A stretch of DNA of 64,000 bases, taken from assembly GCF_023223645.1 (NCBI RefSeq), contig NZ_JALKBY010000017.1:1-64000 (forward strand). Reading direction: 5' to 3'. The translations under genes and the position numbers were made by a program. Shown one piece after another: positions 14,831-60,111 of the stretch (the stretch's first letter is position 1; each line of letters begins with the position of its first letter). The notes beneath the pieces are model-generated. The model did not search any database. It was not told where the DNA came from and saw only the letters and a list, made by a program, of their open reading frames with translations. This DNA is from Natroniella sulfidigena (lineage in GTDB: Bacteria; Bacillota; Halanaerobiia; Halobacteroidales; Halobacteroidaceae).

Positions 14831-16339
14831 CTATCCTTTAATACTAGAGTAAAAAGTATAATCATTTTTTTCTTCCTTAGCCTCATACATTGCAGAATCA
14901 GCAATTTTAAGAAGTTGCTTTACTTTTTGAGCATCATCTGGATAAATACCGATCCCTATACTTGCTGTTACTGAAATTTTATTTCCTTTAATCTCCACTG
15001 GTTTAGCAAAGAGAGCAATTATTTTTTCTACCACATTCTTAACATCTGCTTTAGATTCGATATCATTTAGTAAAATAATAAATTCATCGCCCCCAATTCT
15101 AGATATAAAATCCCTTCTTCTTAAATTTGACTGCAATCTGCTCGCTACCTCACAAAGTAAAACATCACCTACATCATGACCATAATAATCATTAACCTCT
15201 TTAAAATTATCTAAATCAAGAAATAAAGTAGCAATTTTACTACCTCTATAATCAGCAATTTTAATCAATTTAGCAAATCTTTCTGTAAAGAACTTTCTAT
15301 TTGGTAAATTAGTCAAACTATCATGATAAGCTATATATTCAGCCTGTCGTATTAATTTATCCATCAGATAACTAAAAGCTAAAAAGACGAAACTGATCAA
15401 AATAATATCAACTACAAATGATCCTCGCTCTCTTCTTAAGGTTGCTATCTTAGAACTATTATCATAACTAATCTCAGCAATATAAGAATTCCACCAATCG
15501 ACCTCCCCATCAGCCAAGTAAACTAAATAAGGTATATAACGATAAATATTTGTAGCATTATCTTCAACTGTAATAGTTTCACCTTCAAAAAATGCCTCCT
15601 CAATAAACTCTTCTTTCTCTTCAAAAAGACCAGACTCTAAATAAGGCTCTTCATAATTTACCTTACGGCTCGATTTTTCTTCTATCCCTATATTTTTATA
15701 AAAAGAAATATCTTCAACCAAATCATAATTAGAACTTAATTGCTCAGCCACAGAGATCATATTAATCTGATCTATAATCGGAAGTTTTTCCTTGATATCA
15801 ATACCTAATTGTAACAAGTATTGTTGATCAAAAGTAGGCATATAACTATATTTTTTCAATTCTCCTGTATTTAATGAAAGGTTCATCCGATCAACTACAA
15901 ACTCATCTTTTGTTAAGCGCTCTTTAAGTAACTCGGCAAAAATAGGTACTTCCTTAAAATCAAGATTTAAATCTGGTTTGTAAGTTGTTGCTACAACCGT
16001 TAAGTCTTGATCTATAATATAAAGCTCATAACCTTCAAATTCAGCTTGTAAGCTCGTAAGATCCCAATTAGAAATGTCAGGCTCTTCTTTATACTTTTCC
16101 TGTAACAACAAAGAATATTCTTTCATTTCTTCATTCAAATTCTTTTCAAAGTTCTCATACACAATATTGGTATACTTAAAAGAATTTAAAATATTGCTTT
16201 CAATTAAAGATTTCTGAGTTTGATGTTCTTCCTTAATTGATTCAATCCTTTGTAGATACCCATGATAATAGATAAATACTAATAGCAAAAAGACAAAAAT
16301 CACAATCACATATCTATTTCTTTTAATAATCTGCAACAT
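14831..16339 (-). CDS. Membrane-anchored diguanylate cyclase
   Basis: 502 residues. Membrane segment at about 8-26 (YVIVIFVFLLLVFIYYHGYL), a roughly 270-residue extracytoplasmic sensor region with acidic composition, a second membrane segment near residues 305-325 (VVDIILISFVFLAFSYL), then a GGDEF domain. The active-site motif GGDEF is intact (416-420) and preceded by RRRD, the RxxD product-inhibition I-site, at the canonical five-residue distance. It should make cyclic di-GMP from GTP in response to an unknown external signal. No EAL domain. It has its own terminator and faces away from the plus-strand genes that follow. Confidence 0.93.
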   Translation of the reverse strand: MLQIIKRNRYVIVIFVFLLLVFIYYHGYLQRIESIKEEHQTQKSLIESNILNSFKYTNIVYENFEKNLNEEMKEYSLLLQEKYKEEPDISNWDLTSLQAEFEGYELYIIDQDLTVVATTYKPDLNLDFKEVPIFAELLKERLTKDEFVVDRMNLSLNTGELKKYSYMPTFDQQYLLQLGIDIKEKLPIIDQINMISVAEQLSSNYDLVEDISFYKNIGIEEKSSRKVNYEEPYLESGLFEEKEEFIEEAFFEGETITVEDNATNIYRYIPYLVYLADGEVDWWNSYIAEISYDNSSKIATLRRERGSFVVDIILISFVFLAFSYLMDKLIRQAEYIAYHDSLTNLPNRKFFTERFAKLIKIADYRGSKIATLFLDLDNFKEVNDYYGHDVGDVLLCEVASRLQSNLRRRDFISRIGGDEFIILLNDIESKADVKNVVEKIIALFAKPVEIKGNKISVTASIGIGIYPDDAQKVKQLLKIADSAMYEAKEEKNDYTFYSSIKG

Positions 16340-52105: not shown

Positions 52106-53308
52106 CTACCGCGGTTGCGCATCACGATTGACCACACCACTTCTCACTACTGTCGCCTTGACATCAATATCAACAGGCAACTGGGCAAAGGTGCTCTTCC
52201 AATCTTCTTCCAATTCAGCCCACACCTTAGGTTTAATTCGATAAAAAGCAAACCCAAACCCAAAGACATCACTCTTTACTGATTGCGCCTTCTCTAACCC
52301 CTGGTTAATATCATTTTCAATCACTTGAGCCATCCGCCGTTCAATCCTCCTAGTAATCTCTGACTCTTCTTTGAAACTGGTTGGCCCAGAAGTATTAACA
52401 ATTATCCCTCTAGCATTAACTTCAACTTCTATTCTAGGTCGACCATCCTTAATTACCGGTTTAATTTCCGAATCTGCCCGCAGAACCCTAATATCTACTT
52501 CAATCTCTTCATCCCTAGGATACGGTACAAATAAGTTAGCTGAATTTATTTCACCTTTGACCCAATTGATCCCTCTCGTCTGGCGATCATTAGCATAACC
52601 TACTGCTTTACCATTATCAAACAGATAGGCACCAGAAATCATAATCGGGGCAGATCGACCAGGATCAGCCATTTCCTCTGCCCCTTCATCCTCTTCTCTT
52701 TTAAACTTCAAAGCGCCTAGATATGGTTGGTACCCCGGCTGACCAAATTTTTTAAAGAAATCATTTGTATTTTCTCTTGCAGTCCCCCCTACATTTTCAA
52801 CAGTGAGATCGATTAAATTCATCACCCCTAAAGCATTAGCCGATTCAAGTGGTATCTCTGTTGATAATAACTCTTTTACATCATTACCTTTAACAACTGC
52901 TAAGACCATAACCCGCCGACTCTCTCTACTTCGAGCTATAGTATTAGCTACAGGTAATACTCCTTTATGATAGGCCATCCTTTCCGAAACCATATAGATC
53001 AAAGAATGGGCAAACAAAATATTTCTCGATGTCTTTTGCCTCAAATTAGCAAGTGCATCATAGATAGAGTGACCCCAGGCTGAGACAGTCCAGAACCTCT
53101 CATCTCCCCCTTCTCCTTCAAATTCTCCTCCCGCTAAACCTAAAGGGCTAGCCATCTGGAAGATCATTTGATATAATTCCGTTTCGGGATCATAATCATA
53201 ACCCCCAGCAATTACAATTGCATGCTCTTCTGGTTCCATTCTATCCCAACAGCCACTTACTAAAAGAAGAGAAGAAATCATAAGCAAAATCAGCAACCTC
53301 TTATTCAC
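52106..53308 (-). CDS. gerC: Spore germination lipoprotein GerC
   Basis: 400 residues. Lipoprotein signal with lipobox LLLVSGCWDRMEPEE (the GCWD motif is typical of Ger(x)C), then VAGGYDYD-like and EVNARGIIVN regions of the family. It is the lipoprotein subunit of a nutrient germinant receptor at the inner spore membrane. GTG start after GGAAGGAG. Third gene of gerABC; gerB ends 2 nt upstream. Confidence 0.9.
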   Translation of the reverse strand: MNKRLLILLMISSLLLVSGCWDRMEPEEHAIVIAGGYDYDPETELYQMIFQMASPLGLAGGEFEGEGGDERFWTVSAWGHSIYDALANLRQKTSRNILFAHSLIYMVSERMAYHKGVLPVANTIARSRESRRVMVLAVVKGNDVKELLSTEIPLESANALGVMNLIDLTVENVGGTARENTNDFFKKFGQPGYQPYLGALKFKREEDEGAEEMADPGRSAPIMISGAYLFDNGKAVGYANDRQTRGINWVKGEINSANLFVPYPRDEEIEVDIRVLRADSEIKPVIKDGRPRIEVEVNARGIIVNTSGPTSFKEESEITRRIERRMAQVIENDINQGLEKAQSVKSDVFGFGFAFYRIKPKVWAELEEDWKSTFAQLPVDIDVKATVVRSGVVNRDAQPR

Positions 53309-53310
53309 GA

Positions 53311-54417
53311 TCAGTTCTCCTTCCTAACTTTATTGACAATAGTTCGTACACCATAAGCTGACCACAGCAAAACTAATGGCCCCAGTAAATAAGCAGCTCC
53401 ATAAGGGCCAACAATAGATGGCTTTAAGAAGCTATAAACTTCAAAAATACTATCAAAACCATGAACTGTCAAAAAGACCCAGAGAACAGCCATTGGCCAG
53501 ATAATAGATCTATAATCCTCTAAACCTAACCACTGAGCCATACCTTTAGCTCCAGCATAAAGAAAGGTCGAAAGTGAAATAAAAACTCCAAACCCCCAAG
53601 AAAAAATAACCAGAATTTCAATTCGTTCTATAAATTTACTGACACGAACCGCCCTCATCAAGACCATGAATGGAAAATTAACTCGGGCCCCCTCCTGCGG
53701 ACTTAAAACAGCAATAGTTGTTAAAACTATCAACAATAAAGTGAATAAAGAAGCAGCTATTGAGGTTAAAGCAACTTGAATACTTTTTTCTGGCTCTGCT
53801 GTTACAGGGGCCAACATCCCCAACACCCAGATCTGAACAATAAAAACAATCGGAACGACTGCTCCTCTCAGTACTGGGCCCCAGCCACGAGCCAAGACTG
53901 GCTGCAGATTAGTTAACTCTATTTCAGTACCTGTTAAGAAAAGTGCTATCAAGATTGCAATCACAAAAACAATAAATAAAAGATCAGCTACTCGCCCCAA
54001 TACCTCAACACCTTGCTGAACACAGATAGTAGCAGGTAAGACCATTCCAACAGCAATAAAGAGTAACGGAGTTTGGGGCAAAAAACCGGTCATAAGTAAT
54101 TCACCATACAATCGCAACTCTACTACCGACAACTGAAGAAAGAGTGCCAAAAAGGCTAAACCAAGTATCTTACCCAACCAATTTCCTAATAAGACCTGAC
54201 TATACTCAATCAAGGTCAACTCAGGAAATTTAGCACACAACATTGCCACTAATAGAACAATAATTTCTGAACCTACCAAGACAACTAAGACAGAAATCCA
54301 GGCATCCTGTAAAGCATCTGCCGTAGTTAAAACCGGAAGAAAAGCTAGAACTGCTGACATTCGCATTATAAATAAAATAAACCATAATTGCCGATTAGCA
54401 ATCTGCTCTTGACTCAT
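53311..54417 (-). CDS. gerB: Spore germination permease GerB
   Basis: 368 residues with about ten membrane segments, APC-superfamily endospore germination permease (QLWFILFIMRMSAVLAFLPV; VELRLYGELLMTGFLPQTP; VLGRVADLLFIVFVIAIL; ILVIFSWGFGVFISLSTFLY). Binds germinant within the receptor complex. Starts 3 nt after gerA, with AAAGGATG inside the gerA end. Confidence 0.9.
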   Translation of the reverse strand: MSQEQIANRQLWFILFIMRMSAVLAFLPVLTTADALQDAWISVLVVLVGSEIIVLLVAMLCAKFPELTLIEYSQVLLGNWLGKILGLAFLALFLQLSVVELRLYGELLMTGFLPQTPLLFIAVGMVLPATICVQQGVEVLGRVADLLFIVFVIAILIALFLTGTEIELTNLQPVLARGWGPVLRGAVVPIVFIVQIWVLGMLAPVTAEPEKSIQVALTSIAASLFTLLLIVLTTIAVLSPQEGARVNFPFMVLMRAVRVSKFIERIEILVIFSWGFGVFISLSTFLYAGAKGMAQWLGLEDYRSIIWPMAVLWVFLTVHGFDSIFEVYSFLKPSIVGPYGAAYLLGPLVLLWSAYGVRTIVNKVRKEN

Positions 54418-54420
54418 CCT

Positions 54421-56031
54421 TTAGTTGCCCCCTCTATTAGGAGGCTGGGATTGTTGGCCCTTCTCTTTTCTCTGTAATTCCCTCTTAGCTGTAGTCTGAG
54501 GTCGAGTTTGATTAAACCAGCGGGGCAATCTGACTATACTATCTTTGAGATCCTGCCAGATTAAAGGAGCAAAAGGCTTGAAATAAGGTTGCCCAAAAGA
54601 ACGCAAAGCAGCTAAATGAACTATTGTAATTAAGATTCCAAATTGAAGCCCAAACAGACCACTAGCCCCTCCTAGAATTAGAAAAACAAACCTGAGTATA
54701 CGAGCCGTAATTGAAAAAGAAAAATCAGGAGTCGTAAAGGACGAAATAGCAGTTAAGGCTACAACTACTACCATCGGTGGTGAAGCCAATCCAGCTCCAA
54801 TAGCTGCCTCTCCCAAAATTAACGCCCCTACAATACTGATCGCAGGACCAATAGCCTGCGGTAAACGAAGACCTGCCTCCCGTAAAATTTCAAAAATCAC
54901 TTCCATTAACAGTGCTTCAACAGTTAATGGAAAAGGAATCCCATCTCTAGTAGAGGTTACTCTCATCAATAACTCAACAGGAATCAATTCAGGGTGATAA
55001 TTAAGAATTGCTACATAAAACCCAGGCAACAATACCGAGATAAAATAAGCAAAATATCTCAATGCCCTAATCAAAGAACCAACAGGAAATATTTCATAAT
55101 AATCATCAGGTGCCTGTAATAAAGCATGAAAATCGACCGGTAATAATAAGCAAAAAGGAGTCCCTTCAGTTAAAATTGCAACCTTCCCTTCTAACAGATA
55201 GGACACAACTATATCTGGTCGCTCTGTCCGCTTGACCAGCGGAAAAATAGTCATCTCATCCATAATACTTTCTTCTATATAACCTGATTCCAATACAGCA
55301 TCAGTATCCATCTCTTCTAAACGTGACTTAACTTCTGTGATCAATTCTTCATTGACCAGACCTTTAATATAAGCTAAAGCTACTTTAGTTTTAGATAATG
55401 AACCTAGTTCATTATTTTCAATCCACAGATGCGGAACCCTTATTCTATGGCGCAAAAGAGCAACATTAGTACTCAATGTCTCCACAAAGCCATCTCTAGA
55501 GCCTCTCAGCGTAATTTCTGCTTCAGGCTCTTGAATATCTCGCGTCTCAAACTTTGTTGTATCACAGATAATTGCTTCCTTTAATCCTGTAACAACAATA
55601 ATCGTACTACCTAATGCCAACTGCTTCAATATTTCTGCTATCTGATCTGTAAAGCTTAAATCCTTATTATTCAAAACTCTATCAATTAAATCAAGAGATA
55701 ACGAACCCTCTACAGTCAACTGTTGGATCTCTAATAAATTTATTTGTAATTTTTCCAAGATCTCTTCAATTGCCTGCTCATCTGTTACTCCATCCATAAA
55801 AAAGATCGCACACTCTGTCTTTGTGACACCTATTTTAGTCTCTCTAATGCTCAAATCAAGACTAGAACCTAGCAATCCTTTAATATGATCAATATTTTTT
55901 TGAAAATCAGCTTCCATCTTCATCTGATTAACATACTCTTCTCTTTCACTTAAATCAAGATCCTCTAATTGATAAACTTCATCCTCTTGCTGTTTACCAA
56001 TTAAGCTCTTAAGAAATTCGATTATCTCCAT
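54421..56031 (-). CDS. gerA: Spore germination protein GerA
   Basis: About 536 residues. Soluble N-terminal region (1-270) with DLSIRETKIG and GSSLDLSI, then the conserved PDIVVSYLLEGKVAILTEGTPF and FHALLQAPDDYYE, and a membrane region with about five segments (RVTSTRDGIPFPLTVEALLMEV; RLPQAIGPAISIVGALILGEAA). GerA subunits form the ion channel of the germinant receptor. The start is ATG 56031 after GAGGTG; ATG 56061 lacks a site. C-terminal tail is basic (RPQTTAKRELQRKEKG). Confidence 0.92.
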   Translation of the reverse strand: MEIIEFLKSLIGKQQEDEVYQLEDLDLSEREEYVNQMKMEADFQKNIDHIKGLLGSSLDLSIRETKIGVTKTECAIFFMDGVTDEQAIEEILEKLQINLLEIQQLTVEGSLSLDLIDRVLNNKDLSFTDQIAEILKQLALGSTIIVVTGLKEAIICDTTKFETRDIQEPEAEITLRGSRDGFVETLSTNVALLRHRIRVPHLWIENNELGSLSKTKVALAYIKGLVNEELITEVKSRLEEMDTDAVLESGYIEESIMDEMTIFPLVKRTERPDIVVSYLLEGKVAILTEGTPFCLLLPVDFHALLQAPDDYYEIFPVGSLIRALRYFAYFISVLLPGFYVAILNYHPELIPVELLMRVTSTRDGIPFPLTVEALLMEVIFEILREAGLRLPQAIGPAISIVGALILGEAAIGAGLASPPMVVVVALTAISSFTTPDFSFSITARILRFVFLILGGASGLFGLQFGILITIVHLAALRSFGQPYFKPFAPLIWQDLKDSIVRLPRWFNQTRPQTTAKRELQRKEKGQQSQPPNRGGN

Positions 56032-56132
56032 CACAAACACCTCATTTATAATCAAAATCACTACTAAGTATTATGATCATAAAATAGATAATTATACCTT
56101 TATTTGAATCTATTATTACTTATTCCAGATAA

Positions 56133-56253: not shown

Positions 56254-56351
56254 AGAACAGATCCATTAAGATCTGACCACCTTTACTTCCTGCTTTGACA
56301 AAAGTTAAATCAAATAAAAAATTCCTAACCTATAATAGTCAGGAATTTTTT
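56254..56351 (-). terminator. Terminators of the Spo0E-like gene
   Basis: Two hairpins: AAAAAATTCCT...AGGAATTTTTT at 56316-56351, about 70 nt after the stop codon, and a weaker CAGATC-CATTAA-GATCTG at 56262-56278 followed by TTCTTTTTTTATC on the minus strand. Confidence 0.7.
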
Positions 56352-56422: not shown

Positions 56423-56605
56423 TCATTCAGCCAGATATAATTCATTCGAAGCTTGTACATTATAGAAAGATACTATTGATTGATCTAATTTTTGACTTTC
56501 TTTGACCACTTCTTCAGAAACAAGGCTTCGTTCTTTCTCTATCACTTCTGAAAGCTTTAACTTTGATCTACTTATTTTTTCTTTCAATTCCTTAATATTA
56601 GACAT
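56423..56605 (-). CDS. Spo0E-like aspartyl-phosphate phosphatase
   Basis: 60 residues, two-helix Spo0E family: SNIKELKEKISRSKLKLSEV forms helix 1 and the hallmark SQKLDQSIVSFYN (S-x-x-L-D-x-x-I) lies in helix 2. These proteins remove phosphate from Spo0A and delay sporulation. The start is ATG 56605 with GGGAGG 8 nt upstream; the longer frame from 56647 runs through leader sequence. The gene stands behind a c-di-GMP-II-type riboswitch and its terminator (56677-56775), so c-di-GMP probably sets its expression. Confidence 0.85.
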   Translation of the reverse strand: MSNIKELKEKISRSKLKLSEVIEKERSLVSEEVVKESQKLDQSIVSFYNVQASNELYLAE

Positions 56606-56676
56606 TGCAGGCACCTCCCTATTATATCTTAACAGTCCAAAAAACAAGAACGTGATGAGTGAGTTTGATTGAAAAT

Positions 56677-56706
56677 AAAAAAACCTAGAATAGTTAAATT
56701 CTAAGG
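56677..56706 (-). terminator. Riboswitch expression platform terminator
   Basis: On the minus strand CCTTAGAAT-TTAAC-ATTCTAGG (one bulged base) followed by TTTTTTTATTTTC. The 5' arm overlaps the 3' end of the aptamer (ACCCACC, TTAG), so aptamer closing and terminator formation compete. Confidence 0.8.
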
Positions 56707-56775
56707 TGGGTTCGCTACTAACTCCATATAGCTCAAGCGACCAGATACAAGCTATACTTCATCGTTTCTTTATGA
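56701..56775 (-). ncRNA. Cyclic di-GMP-II class riboswitch aptamer
   Basis: Minus-strand sequence from 56775 to 56701 matches the layout of the c-di-GMP-II aptamer known from Clostridium: AAACGATGAAG, then TCTGGTCGCTTGA, a variable hairpin, and the hallmark TTAGTAGCGAACCCACC. In the published aptamer the corresponding parts are AACAATGATGAA, TTGGGCACTTGA and TTAGTAGTGCAACCGACC. CGCT pairs with AGCG and GGT with ACC, with covariation relative to the known aptamer (GCAC/GTGC). A terminator and a Spo0E-like gene follow. The P1 stem looks weak, the main uncertainty. Confidence 0.8.
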
Positions 56776-56939
56776 TATTAATCCTATATTCATTTTTAAA
56801 TTATGGTATAAATTTACATCAATTGACATAATATATGTTATCTTAATTTCTGATTGATCTCATTATACATTCTTATCTAATAATTGTCAAATAAGAATAA
56901 AAATCCTAAAAAATTGTTCTTGTGATTAATTCAAATATG

Positions 56940-58656: not shown

Positions 58657-59004
58657 CTTAAATTCTCCTCTCAGTTTTATAACTTTAATATTGGAAATAG
58701 TATGAGGCCATTATGATTTTTCGACATAACCAGACTACATTCCTCCCTATTGATGACTATTATTATTAATTTTACCTTATTTTTCTCTAAGGGCTACACT
58801 TAAAATAACCATTGCTGTCCTCTTAATCTGAGGTTCAATGGTAATATTTTTATATTATGTTGATTAAATCTTAATAATCTAAAATTATAATATTTATTAA
58901 TTAAAATGTAAAACTTTGCAGGATATTAGTCCCAATATATCAAATTAAAACTATAAGGTCTATTTACATAAGAATTAAAGTTAAATAATATTGGAGGGCT
59001 AATG
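58657..59004. other. Non-coding gap between divergent chemoreceptor and HD-GYP genes
   Basis: 348 nt. A hairpin with arms ACCATTG and CAATGGT and an inner CCTC/GAGG pair (58818-58852), followed by AATATTTTT on the plus strand, looks terminator-like but no gene precedes it. No c-di-GMP riboswitch was found here on either strand. Confidence 0.4.
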
Positions 59005-60111
59005 ATGGTTTTAACCAAGGTGAGCAATTTAGAAGAAGGGAATGTTTTATCAAAAAGTATCTACTCTTCTGATGGAAAGATATTATTAAGAGAAGGGGTC
59101 AAATTGAGCAGAAATACTATCAATAAATTGAAGAACTATGGAATTACACATGTTTATATAAAGAATGAATTACTTAAAAAAATCAAGAAAAAGACTTTAG
59201 TAAAAGAAAGTATAAAAAAATTAGCAGTATCTACCGTTAAAAAGTATATGACTATTTTTGATCCGCCAGATACTCTAGATAATAATACTAAAGGTCAAGA
59301 AGAATTGTTAAATAAAGAAGAGTTGATTAATATAATTGATGAAATTATAAATGATATTTGTAATTGTGAAGATTTATTTGTTAATTTACGAGATATTAGA
59401 AGATTAAATGATGAATTATTTTTTCATTCAACTAATGTAGCAATCCTATCAGTTATATTTGGTAAAATTTTAAACTATAATGCTCAAGAGCTGAAATCAT
59501 TAGGTATGGGAGCCTTATTACATGATATTGGTAAATTAAAGATTCCTTCTAAAATATTAAATAAACCAGGCAAGCTGACTGATAAAGAATTTGAACAAGT
59601 TAAAAAACATTCTTTGTATAGCTATCAAACTTTAAAGTCATGTACTAAAATATCTGAAGTTTCTGCCACTATAGCCTATCAGCATCACGAAAAATGTGAT
59701 GGCTCTGGTTATCCTTTAGGATTAACCAAAGATAAGATCCATCCTTTTTCTAGAATAGTAACTATAGCAGATATCTTTGATGCTTTACAAAATAATAGAA
59801 GTTATCGGTCCGGTTTAAAAAATGAGGAAGTAATCAAACACTTAATCTCTATGACAAAAGATAATAAGCTGGATAGTACTATTCTCAAAAAAATCTTACA
59901 CTATCTAGTTCCATTTCCTATTGGTAGCAGGGTACGACTGTATAATCATAAAGTTAACAGCTTATTAGAAGGAGCGGTAATAGAACTTAATAATGACATT
60001 TCAAAGCCATTAGTTCAGATTTTAAAGGTCAATAATAGAAAAGTTCATAAACCCTTGACAGTTAATTTGGAAGAAGAATTGACTGATTATCAGATTGAAG
60101 AAGTTATTTAA
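59005..60111 (+). CDS. HD-GYP cyclic di-GMP phosphodiesterase
   Basis: About 368 residues. N-terminal 110 residues of DUF3391-like type (GNVLSKSIYSSDGKILLREG), then an HD-GYP domain with LLHDIGKLKIP, HHEKCDGSGYP (the diagnostic GYP), FSRIVTIADIFDAL and the C-terminal PFPIGSRVRLYN extension. Degrades c-di-GMP. No receiver domain. The ATG at 59005 is better spaced from GGAGGG than the one at 59002. Third enzyme or receptor of c-di-GMP in the window. Confidence 0.92.
   Translation: MVLTKVSNLEEGNVLSKSIYSSDGKILLREGVKLSRNTINKLKNYGITHVYIKNELLKKIKKKTLVKESIKKLAVSTVKKYMTIFDPPDTLDNNTKGQEELLNKEELINIIDEIINDICNCEDLFVNLRDIRRLNDELFFHSTNVAILSVIFGKILNYNAQELKSLGMGALLHDIGKLKIPSKILNKPGKLTDKEFEQVKKHSLYSYQTLKSCTKISEVSATIAYQHHEKCDGSGYPLGLTKDKIHPFSRIVTIADIFDALQNNRSYRSGLKNEEVIKHLISMTKDNKLDSTILKKILHYLVPFPIGSRVRLYNHKVNSLLEGAVIELNNDISKPLVQILKVNNRKVHKPLTVNLEEELTDYQIEEVI

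Follow-up and report, generated by a model that had tools for sequence, protein, structure and literature searches.

A c-di-GMP-II riboswitch precedes a Spo0E-like gene in Natroniella sulfidigena: a proposed RNA link between c-di-GMP and sporulation

Introduction

How c-di-GMP bears on a cell's decision to form spores is a standing question. The messenger is a signal for attachment and biofilm, and proteins of the Spo0E family act at the other end of the problem: they remove phosphate from Spo0A, the master regulator of spore formation.

In the stretch of N. sulfidigena DNA analysed here (64 kb, hereafter the window) a c-di-GMP-II aptamer lies on the minus strand in front of a Spo0E-like gene. 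The locus raises the question of whether c-di-GMP is connected to Spo0A directly through RNA, as an earlier reading made from the sequence alone had proposed. In Clostridioides difficile, c-di-GMP inhibits early sporulation by a pathway that has not been identified, and none of the riboswitches of that species appears to affect sporulation genes (PMC8653836). The sequence-only reading knew of no described case of the connection; that held in the literature we searched, in which no link between a c-di-GMP riboswitch and Spo0E was described, with subscription papers mostly outside our reach.

Results

The aptamer

The covariance-model scan that had been suggested as a check on the minus-strand aptamer gave a significant, full-length match. 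RF01786 (c-di-GMP-II) matches at 56778-56696 (minus strand) over model positions 1-84 of 84, with 59.4 bits against a gathering threshold of 53.5 (E 1.2e-10 for 64 kb), and TTAGTAGCGAACCCACC is found at 56721-56705 on the same strand. RF01786 was the sole curated RNA family detected across the window. The variant family c-di-GMP-II-GAG (RF03169) was considered and rejected: it scored 37.0 bits, under its own cut-off of 40 and below the RF01786 score. Family membership confirms the RNA as a genuine c-di-GMP-II aptamer; the identity of the ligand and the binding of c-di-GMP are inferred. The element thus stands as it was first described, except that its aptamer starts at 56778 and not at 56775, and that the regulated unit also takes in a promoter at 56890-56862. 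The parts of the aptamer are as follows.

56696-56778, minus strand: c-di-GMP-II riboswitch aptamer (RF01786, full length)
56703-56770, minus strand: P1, a minimal and weak helix, AAG 56770-56768 with CTT 56705-56703 (duplex -0.9 kcal/mol)
56720-56766, minus strand: P2, AAC 56766-56764 with GTT 56722-56720 (pairing and covariation analysis)
56726-56757, minus strand: P3, GTATAGCT 56757-56750 with AGCTATAT 56733-56726 (8 pairs, double changes in each across 27 relatives)
56712-56740, minus strand: pseudoknot, TCGCT 56740-56736 with AGCGA 56716-56712 (two pairs differ from kin by compensatory change)

Every one of the 16 pairs of P2, P3 and the pseudoknot is a standard pair in the window aptamer. 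When it was aligned with 26 others from the same order (27 sequences in all), 97.5% of the P2, P3 and pseudoknot cells were standard pairs and double changes were seen at 14 of the 16 pairs, against 6.7 in shuffles; neither shuffled nor slid versions of the alignment came anywhere near this. The compensatory change reported earlier as GCAC/GTGC to CGCT/AGCG proved right in substance, its exact form being TCACC/GGTGA in the kin and TCGCT/AGCGA in the window, a double compensation in which A-U becomes G-C and C-G becomes U-A. The columns involved are otherwise invariant, or nearly so, among the relatives. Outside P1 the window aptamer deviates at five columns of at least 80% conservation; four are these pseudoknot letters and one is a letter of P3, and all five preserve their pairs. 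P1 itself consists of AAG/CUU alone and is among the weakest in the order, where a short P1 is common and other members also have one of 3 bp.

There are three RF01786 matches in the whole genome. The two outside the window precede a FapA-like (DUF342) gene and a type IV pilus ATPase-like gene, names that were given by sequence resemblance without profile support. Several genomes of the order also carry sub-threshold c-di-GMP-II-like aptamers (L042-L050) with the pseudoknot GGTTGCC/GGCAA, several of them in arrays upstream of paralogous small membrane or secreted proteins; this group may be a subclass deserving a model of its own.

The leader and its predicted direction of switching

Around the aptamer lies a leader that runs from a consensus promoter to a ribosome-binding site.

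56862-56890, minus strand: promoter TTGACA, 17-nt spacer, TATAAT (12/12 in the promoter scan; transcription start inferred near 56855)
56677-56705, minus strand: terminator hairpin with T7 tract, its 5' arm CTTAGAAT reusing CTT, the 3' strand of P1 (folding energy, shuffles)
56614-56619, minus strand: Shine-Dalgarno sequence GGGAGG, 8 nt 5' of the ATG

Perfect promoter sites with 17-nt spacing are rare, with three in the window and nine in the 553 kb scanned. A second candidate promoter, with TATAAT at 56626-56621 just 5' of the ribosome-binding site, was rejected: its -35 element is poor, it is absent from the promoter scan, and transcription starting there would lose the Shine-Dalgarno sequence.

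The terminator-like hairpin, CTTAGAAT(TTAACT)ATTCTAGG followed by T7 at 56705-56677 (minus strand), begins within the 3' strand of P1, as the sequence-only reading had noted when it placed the 5' arm over the end of the aptamer. The trinucleotide CTT is at once the first three bases of the terminator and the 3' strand of P1; with CTT locked in P1 the residual hairpin has only -1.5 kcal/mol, and AGG then stands between it and the T run. No antiterminator strand is present between the aptamer and the hairpin. Among 29 aptamers of the order, about 20 have a terminator that also starts inside or just before the 3' strand of P1, a recurrence that points to a shared design with ON logic.

The leader terminator has a folding energy of about -6.0 to -7.2 kcal/mol, equalled by 3 of 500 shuffles, and a generic terminator scan of the window did not report it, weak as it is. 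Within their set, P1 (-0.9 kcal/mol) and the terminator (about -6) rank last or close to last in strength, and since both are weak, switching may be leaky. This leader is best read as an ON switch, with both the switching and its direction inferred from the anatomy. Class II c-di-GMP switches of C. difficile are ON switches (PMC11477304, PMC6200980).

The Spo0E-like gene and its surroundings

The gene behind the leader is the 60-residue Spo0E-family gene that had been recognised in the first place.

56423-56605, minus strand: Spo0E-like gene, 60 aa, with SQKLD (SxxxD) at residues 37-41 (PF09388, motif, structural model)
56316-56351, minus strand: terminator 3' of the Spo0E-like gene (terminator scan)

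The open reading frame (ATG 56605..56423) matches PF09388 with 31.7 bits against a cut-off of 23. It contains the SxxxD signature as S37-QKL-D41, and S37, L40 and D41 are invariant in 19 relatives; SxxxD is the motif of the Spo0E family (PMC11115286). The predicted structure is Spo0E-like, a confidently modelled two-helix hairpin within the 40-100 aa looked for in the family (helices 2-24 and 31-59, pLDDT 88.5), and its top structural match is the aspartyl-phosphate phosphatase 2c0s (TM 0.78, Foldseek probability 0.99, E-value 0.34 for this short chain). The family profile retrieves PDB entries 2bzb and 2c0s.

Germination genes resembling gerKA-KB-KC lie directly downstream at 52106-56061 (minus strand), and the intervening terminator suggests that the Spo0E-like transcript carries a single gene and ends before them. 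The family offers this receptor operon no relatives closer than about 40% identity, and a clear ortholog is missing from the congener. In that genome (G009) orthologs of the Spo0E-like gene and of the flanking ger genes were not found. Following the neighbouring GerKA-like and MCP genes to their orthologs led to no syntenic locus. As the Spo0E-like gene is without an ortholog in the sole congener, synteny cannot show selection on the riboswitch-gene pair. A protein search of genome contigs with the Spo0E query returned no relatives; the query is too short and divergent.

The same genome encodes Spo0A, seven Spo0E-like genes (that of the window included) and seven GGDEF domains, one of them inside the window. 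This GGDEF gene is at 14831-16339 (minus strand). An HD-GYP gene, its motif recognised in the sequence, is at 59002-60111 (plus strand), 2.2 kb from the riboswitch. These two genes likely encode enzymes of c-di-GMP synthesis and breakdown, respectively. Near a different Spo0E-like gene of the genome there is a group II intron match (RF02003, L007:1-112, minus strand).

c-di-GMP riboswitches before other Spo0E-like genes

A positional comparison of class II aptamers (about 95, from 59 genomes of the class) with PF09388 matches showed the window pair to be the only instance of such an aptamer adjacent to a Spo0E gene in the correct order. A phylum-wide sample of 120 further class II aptamers contained one that precedes a Spo0E-like gene. 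It is found on contig 32 of genome G318, which belongs to a family distant from the window organism (L204:1-346, plus strand; L235:3321-3666), with RF01786 at 54.9 bits, PF09388 at 38.9 bits and a gap of about 78 nt between aptamer and gene. Its leader has no obvious terminator, and a SleB-like cell-wall hydrolase is encoded downstream. A DNA pattern combining the class II core with SxxLD at fixed spacing gave 27 matches in 85,462 genomes, none of which was an aptamer before Spo0E; several were true c-di-GMP-II aptamers. The pattern required GGAG and limited spacing, so the G318 case was undetectable by design.

Class I aptamers provide further instances. In G003, a genome of the same order, a tandem pair of Spo0E genes has a c-di-GMP-I riboswitch before each member (RF01051 59.7 and 58.5 bits, cut-off 35), the two leaders being at L053:1838-1650 and L053:2428-2260 on the minus strand. 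A model built from these two leaders finds two more aptamers before Spo0E genes in G003 (49.0 and 48.6 bits, E about 1e-10), which were identified by this model alone and have no Rfam score. All four proteins match PF09388.

L053:1477-2428, minus strand: G003 class I/Spo0E locus
L236: G003 class I/Spo0E locus
L242:751-1115: G003 class I/Spo0E locus
L243:768-1141: G003 class I/Spo0E locus
(four Spo0E-like genes over these entries)

The tandem pair adjoins genes resembling dacF, spoIIAA, spoIIAB and sigF, named by sequence resemblance. The terminator is strong in each of the four leaders (-18.6 to -21.9 kcal/mol). The tandem leaders have an alternative helix, at about -18 kcal/mol, in which the 3' strand of the aptamer pairs with the 5' arm and loop of the terminator; in the other two this helix is weaker (-11.6 and -13.6 kcal/mol). 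Because the antiterminator helix uses the aptamer 3' strand, an OFF architecture is predicted, and the four leaders look like OFF switches, although their switching is inferred. With ON architecture in the window and OFF architecture in G003, the sign of c-di-GMP control over Spo0E is not generalisable.

An upstream c-di-GMP aptamer is present at at least five of about 60 Spo0E loci in the class, those of the window and the four of G003. This is a lower bound: the curated class I model was applied to part of the loci only. A weak class-I-like match in L247 was discarded, as it is oriented away from its Spo0E gene.

Discussion

At the level of sequence, the aptamer, the CTT strand that it shares with the terminator, the Spo0E-like gene and the presence of Spo0A, GGDEF and HD-GYP in the genome are established. 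We consider it probable that the c-di-GMP-II riboswitch is a transcriptional ON switch of a single spo0E-like gene and delays sporulation when c-di-GMP is high; ligand, switching, direction and action on Spo0A are all inferred. Transcription would start about 77 nt before the aptamer. In the absence of c-di-GMP, the hairpin of CTTAGAAT and ATTCTAGG and its T7 tract would form and RNA polymerase would halt before the gene. With c-di-GMP bound, the pseudoknotted aptamer would fold, P1 would take CTT, the base of the terminator would be prevented from forming, and the Spo0E-like protein would be made. Like other members of its family, the protein would then strip phosphate from Spo0A~P or block the phosphorylation of Spo0A, and sporulation would be delayed. 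That high c-di-GMP lowers sporulation is itself an inference, drawn by way of Spo0E and Spo0A, and the six other Spo0E-like genes of the genome could mask the effect of this one.

The ON switch forecast by the sequence-only reading finds support in the family score, the covariation, the overlap of terminator and P1 here and in most relatives, and the consensus promoter. Against it stand the weakness of P1 and terminator, the lack of a congener ortholog and the opposite sign predicted for G003. That weakness, together with the failure of the generic scan to report the hairpin, would also fit a real aptamer that switches OFF or is nearly ineffective, with the gene expressed largely by read-through. 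We regard this as unlikely: an antiterminator strand is missing between aptamer and hairpin, the sharing of CTT by terminator and P1 is the ON layout usual in the order, and the compensatory change preserves the pseudoknot, contrary to decay. The pseudoknot is unlike that of close relatives, as it might be in a variant of the class that prefers another ligand and does not sense c-di-GMP; its changes preserve base pairs, however, the remaining conserved core positions are kept, and the GAG variant family scores well below RF01786, so that a variant of this kind seems very improbable.

A working switch could also act through a Spo0E-like protein whose target is not Spo0A but another receiver or a motility regulator. 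The seven Spo0E-like genes of the genome leave room for this, Spo0E of C. difficile binds the motility regulator RstA too, and Spo0E-like proteins occur in non-sporulating species (PMC11115286). Such a target is not to be dismissed but remains improbable, given that Spo0E of Bacillus and of C. difficile inhibits Spo0A (PMC11115286) and that the contexts are those of sporulation: germination-type genes near the window locus and the G318 locus, and the spoIIAA-AB-sigF-like cluster beside the G003 pair. The possibility that a chance rearrangement put the riboswitch before a Spo0E gene without selected function draws on the fact that, of the 95 or so class II aptamers in the class, that of the window alone is so placed, and on the absence of a congener ortholog. 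We hold it to be distinctly unlikely in view of the independent repeats (a class II aptamer in a distant family and four class I aptamers in G003), the pseudoknot maintained by compensation, and a leader that is complete from promoter through ribosome-binding site.

Beyond the single locus, we incline, with less assurance than for the ON switch itself, to the proposal that spore-forming Bacillota have repeatedly placed Spo0E-like genes under c-di-GMP riboswitches of two unrelated classes, as ON or OFF switches, giving a direct RNA link from c-di-GMP to Spo0A whose sign is set by the lineage. Taken singly, the RNA and the protein are unremarkable representatives of known families; what is new, as far as the searched literature shows, is how they are connected. 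If true, a riboswitch on a Spo0A phosphatase would bring the messenger to the master regulator in very few steps, so that attachment and biofilm signalling may set the sporulation threshold directly, and its recurrence with two riboswitch classes of opposite predicted sign would mark an RNA-level wiring point that evolution reuses.

Comparison with known systems

Among the closest known systems are the c-di-GMP-II riboswitches (RF01786), for example Cdi2_4/pilA1 of C. difficile, which the window element resembles in fold, pseudoknot, core and ON control through a terminator that shares P1, the window logic being inferred. The targets differ: those known in C. difficile are pili, adhesins and CmrRST (PMC11477304), whereas the window aptamer serves a Spo0E-like gene. 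The spo0E gene of C. difficile is CD630_32710 and the riboswitch Cdi2_1 serves CD630_32670 (PMC11115286, PMC6200980); the closeness of these locus numbers may be coincidence. The c-di-GMP-I leaders of G003 (RF01051) have in common with the window the messenger, the target family and the platform of a transcription terminator, but they differ in aptamer class and in an antiterminator drawn from the aptamer 3' strand, with OFF switching predicted.

The window protein is like Spo0E, YisI and YnzD (PF09388; 2bzb, 2c0s) in size, helical hairpin and SxxxD motif, and no member of that family has been described under a c-di-GMP riboswitch in the literature searched. Spo0E of C. difficile binds Spo0A and represses sporulation (PMC11115286). 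The outcome predicted for the window, a lower initiation of sporulation, is the same as that of c-di-GMP inhibition in C. difficile (PMC8653836); the pathway is unidentified there, whereas for the window we propose that it runs from riboswitch to Spo0E.
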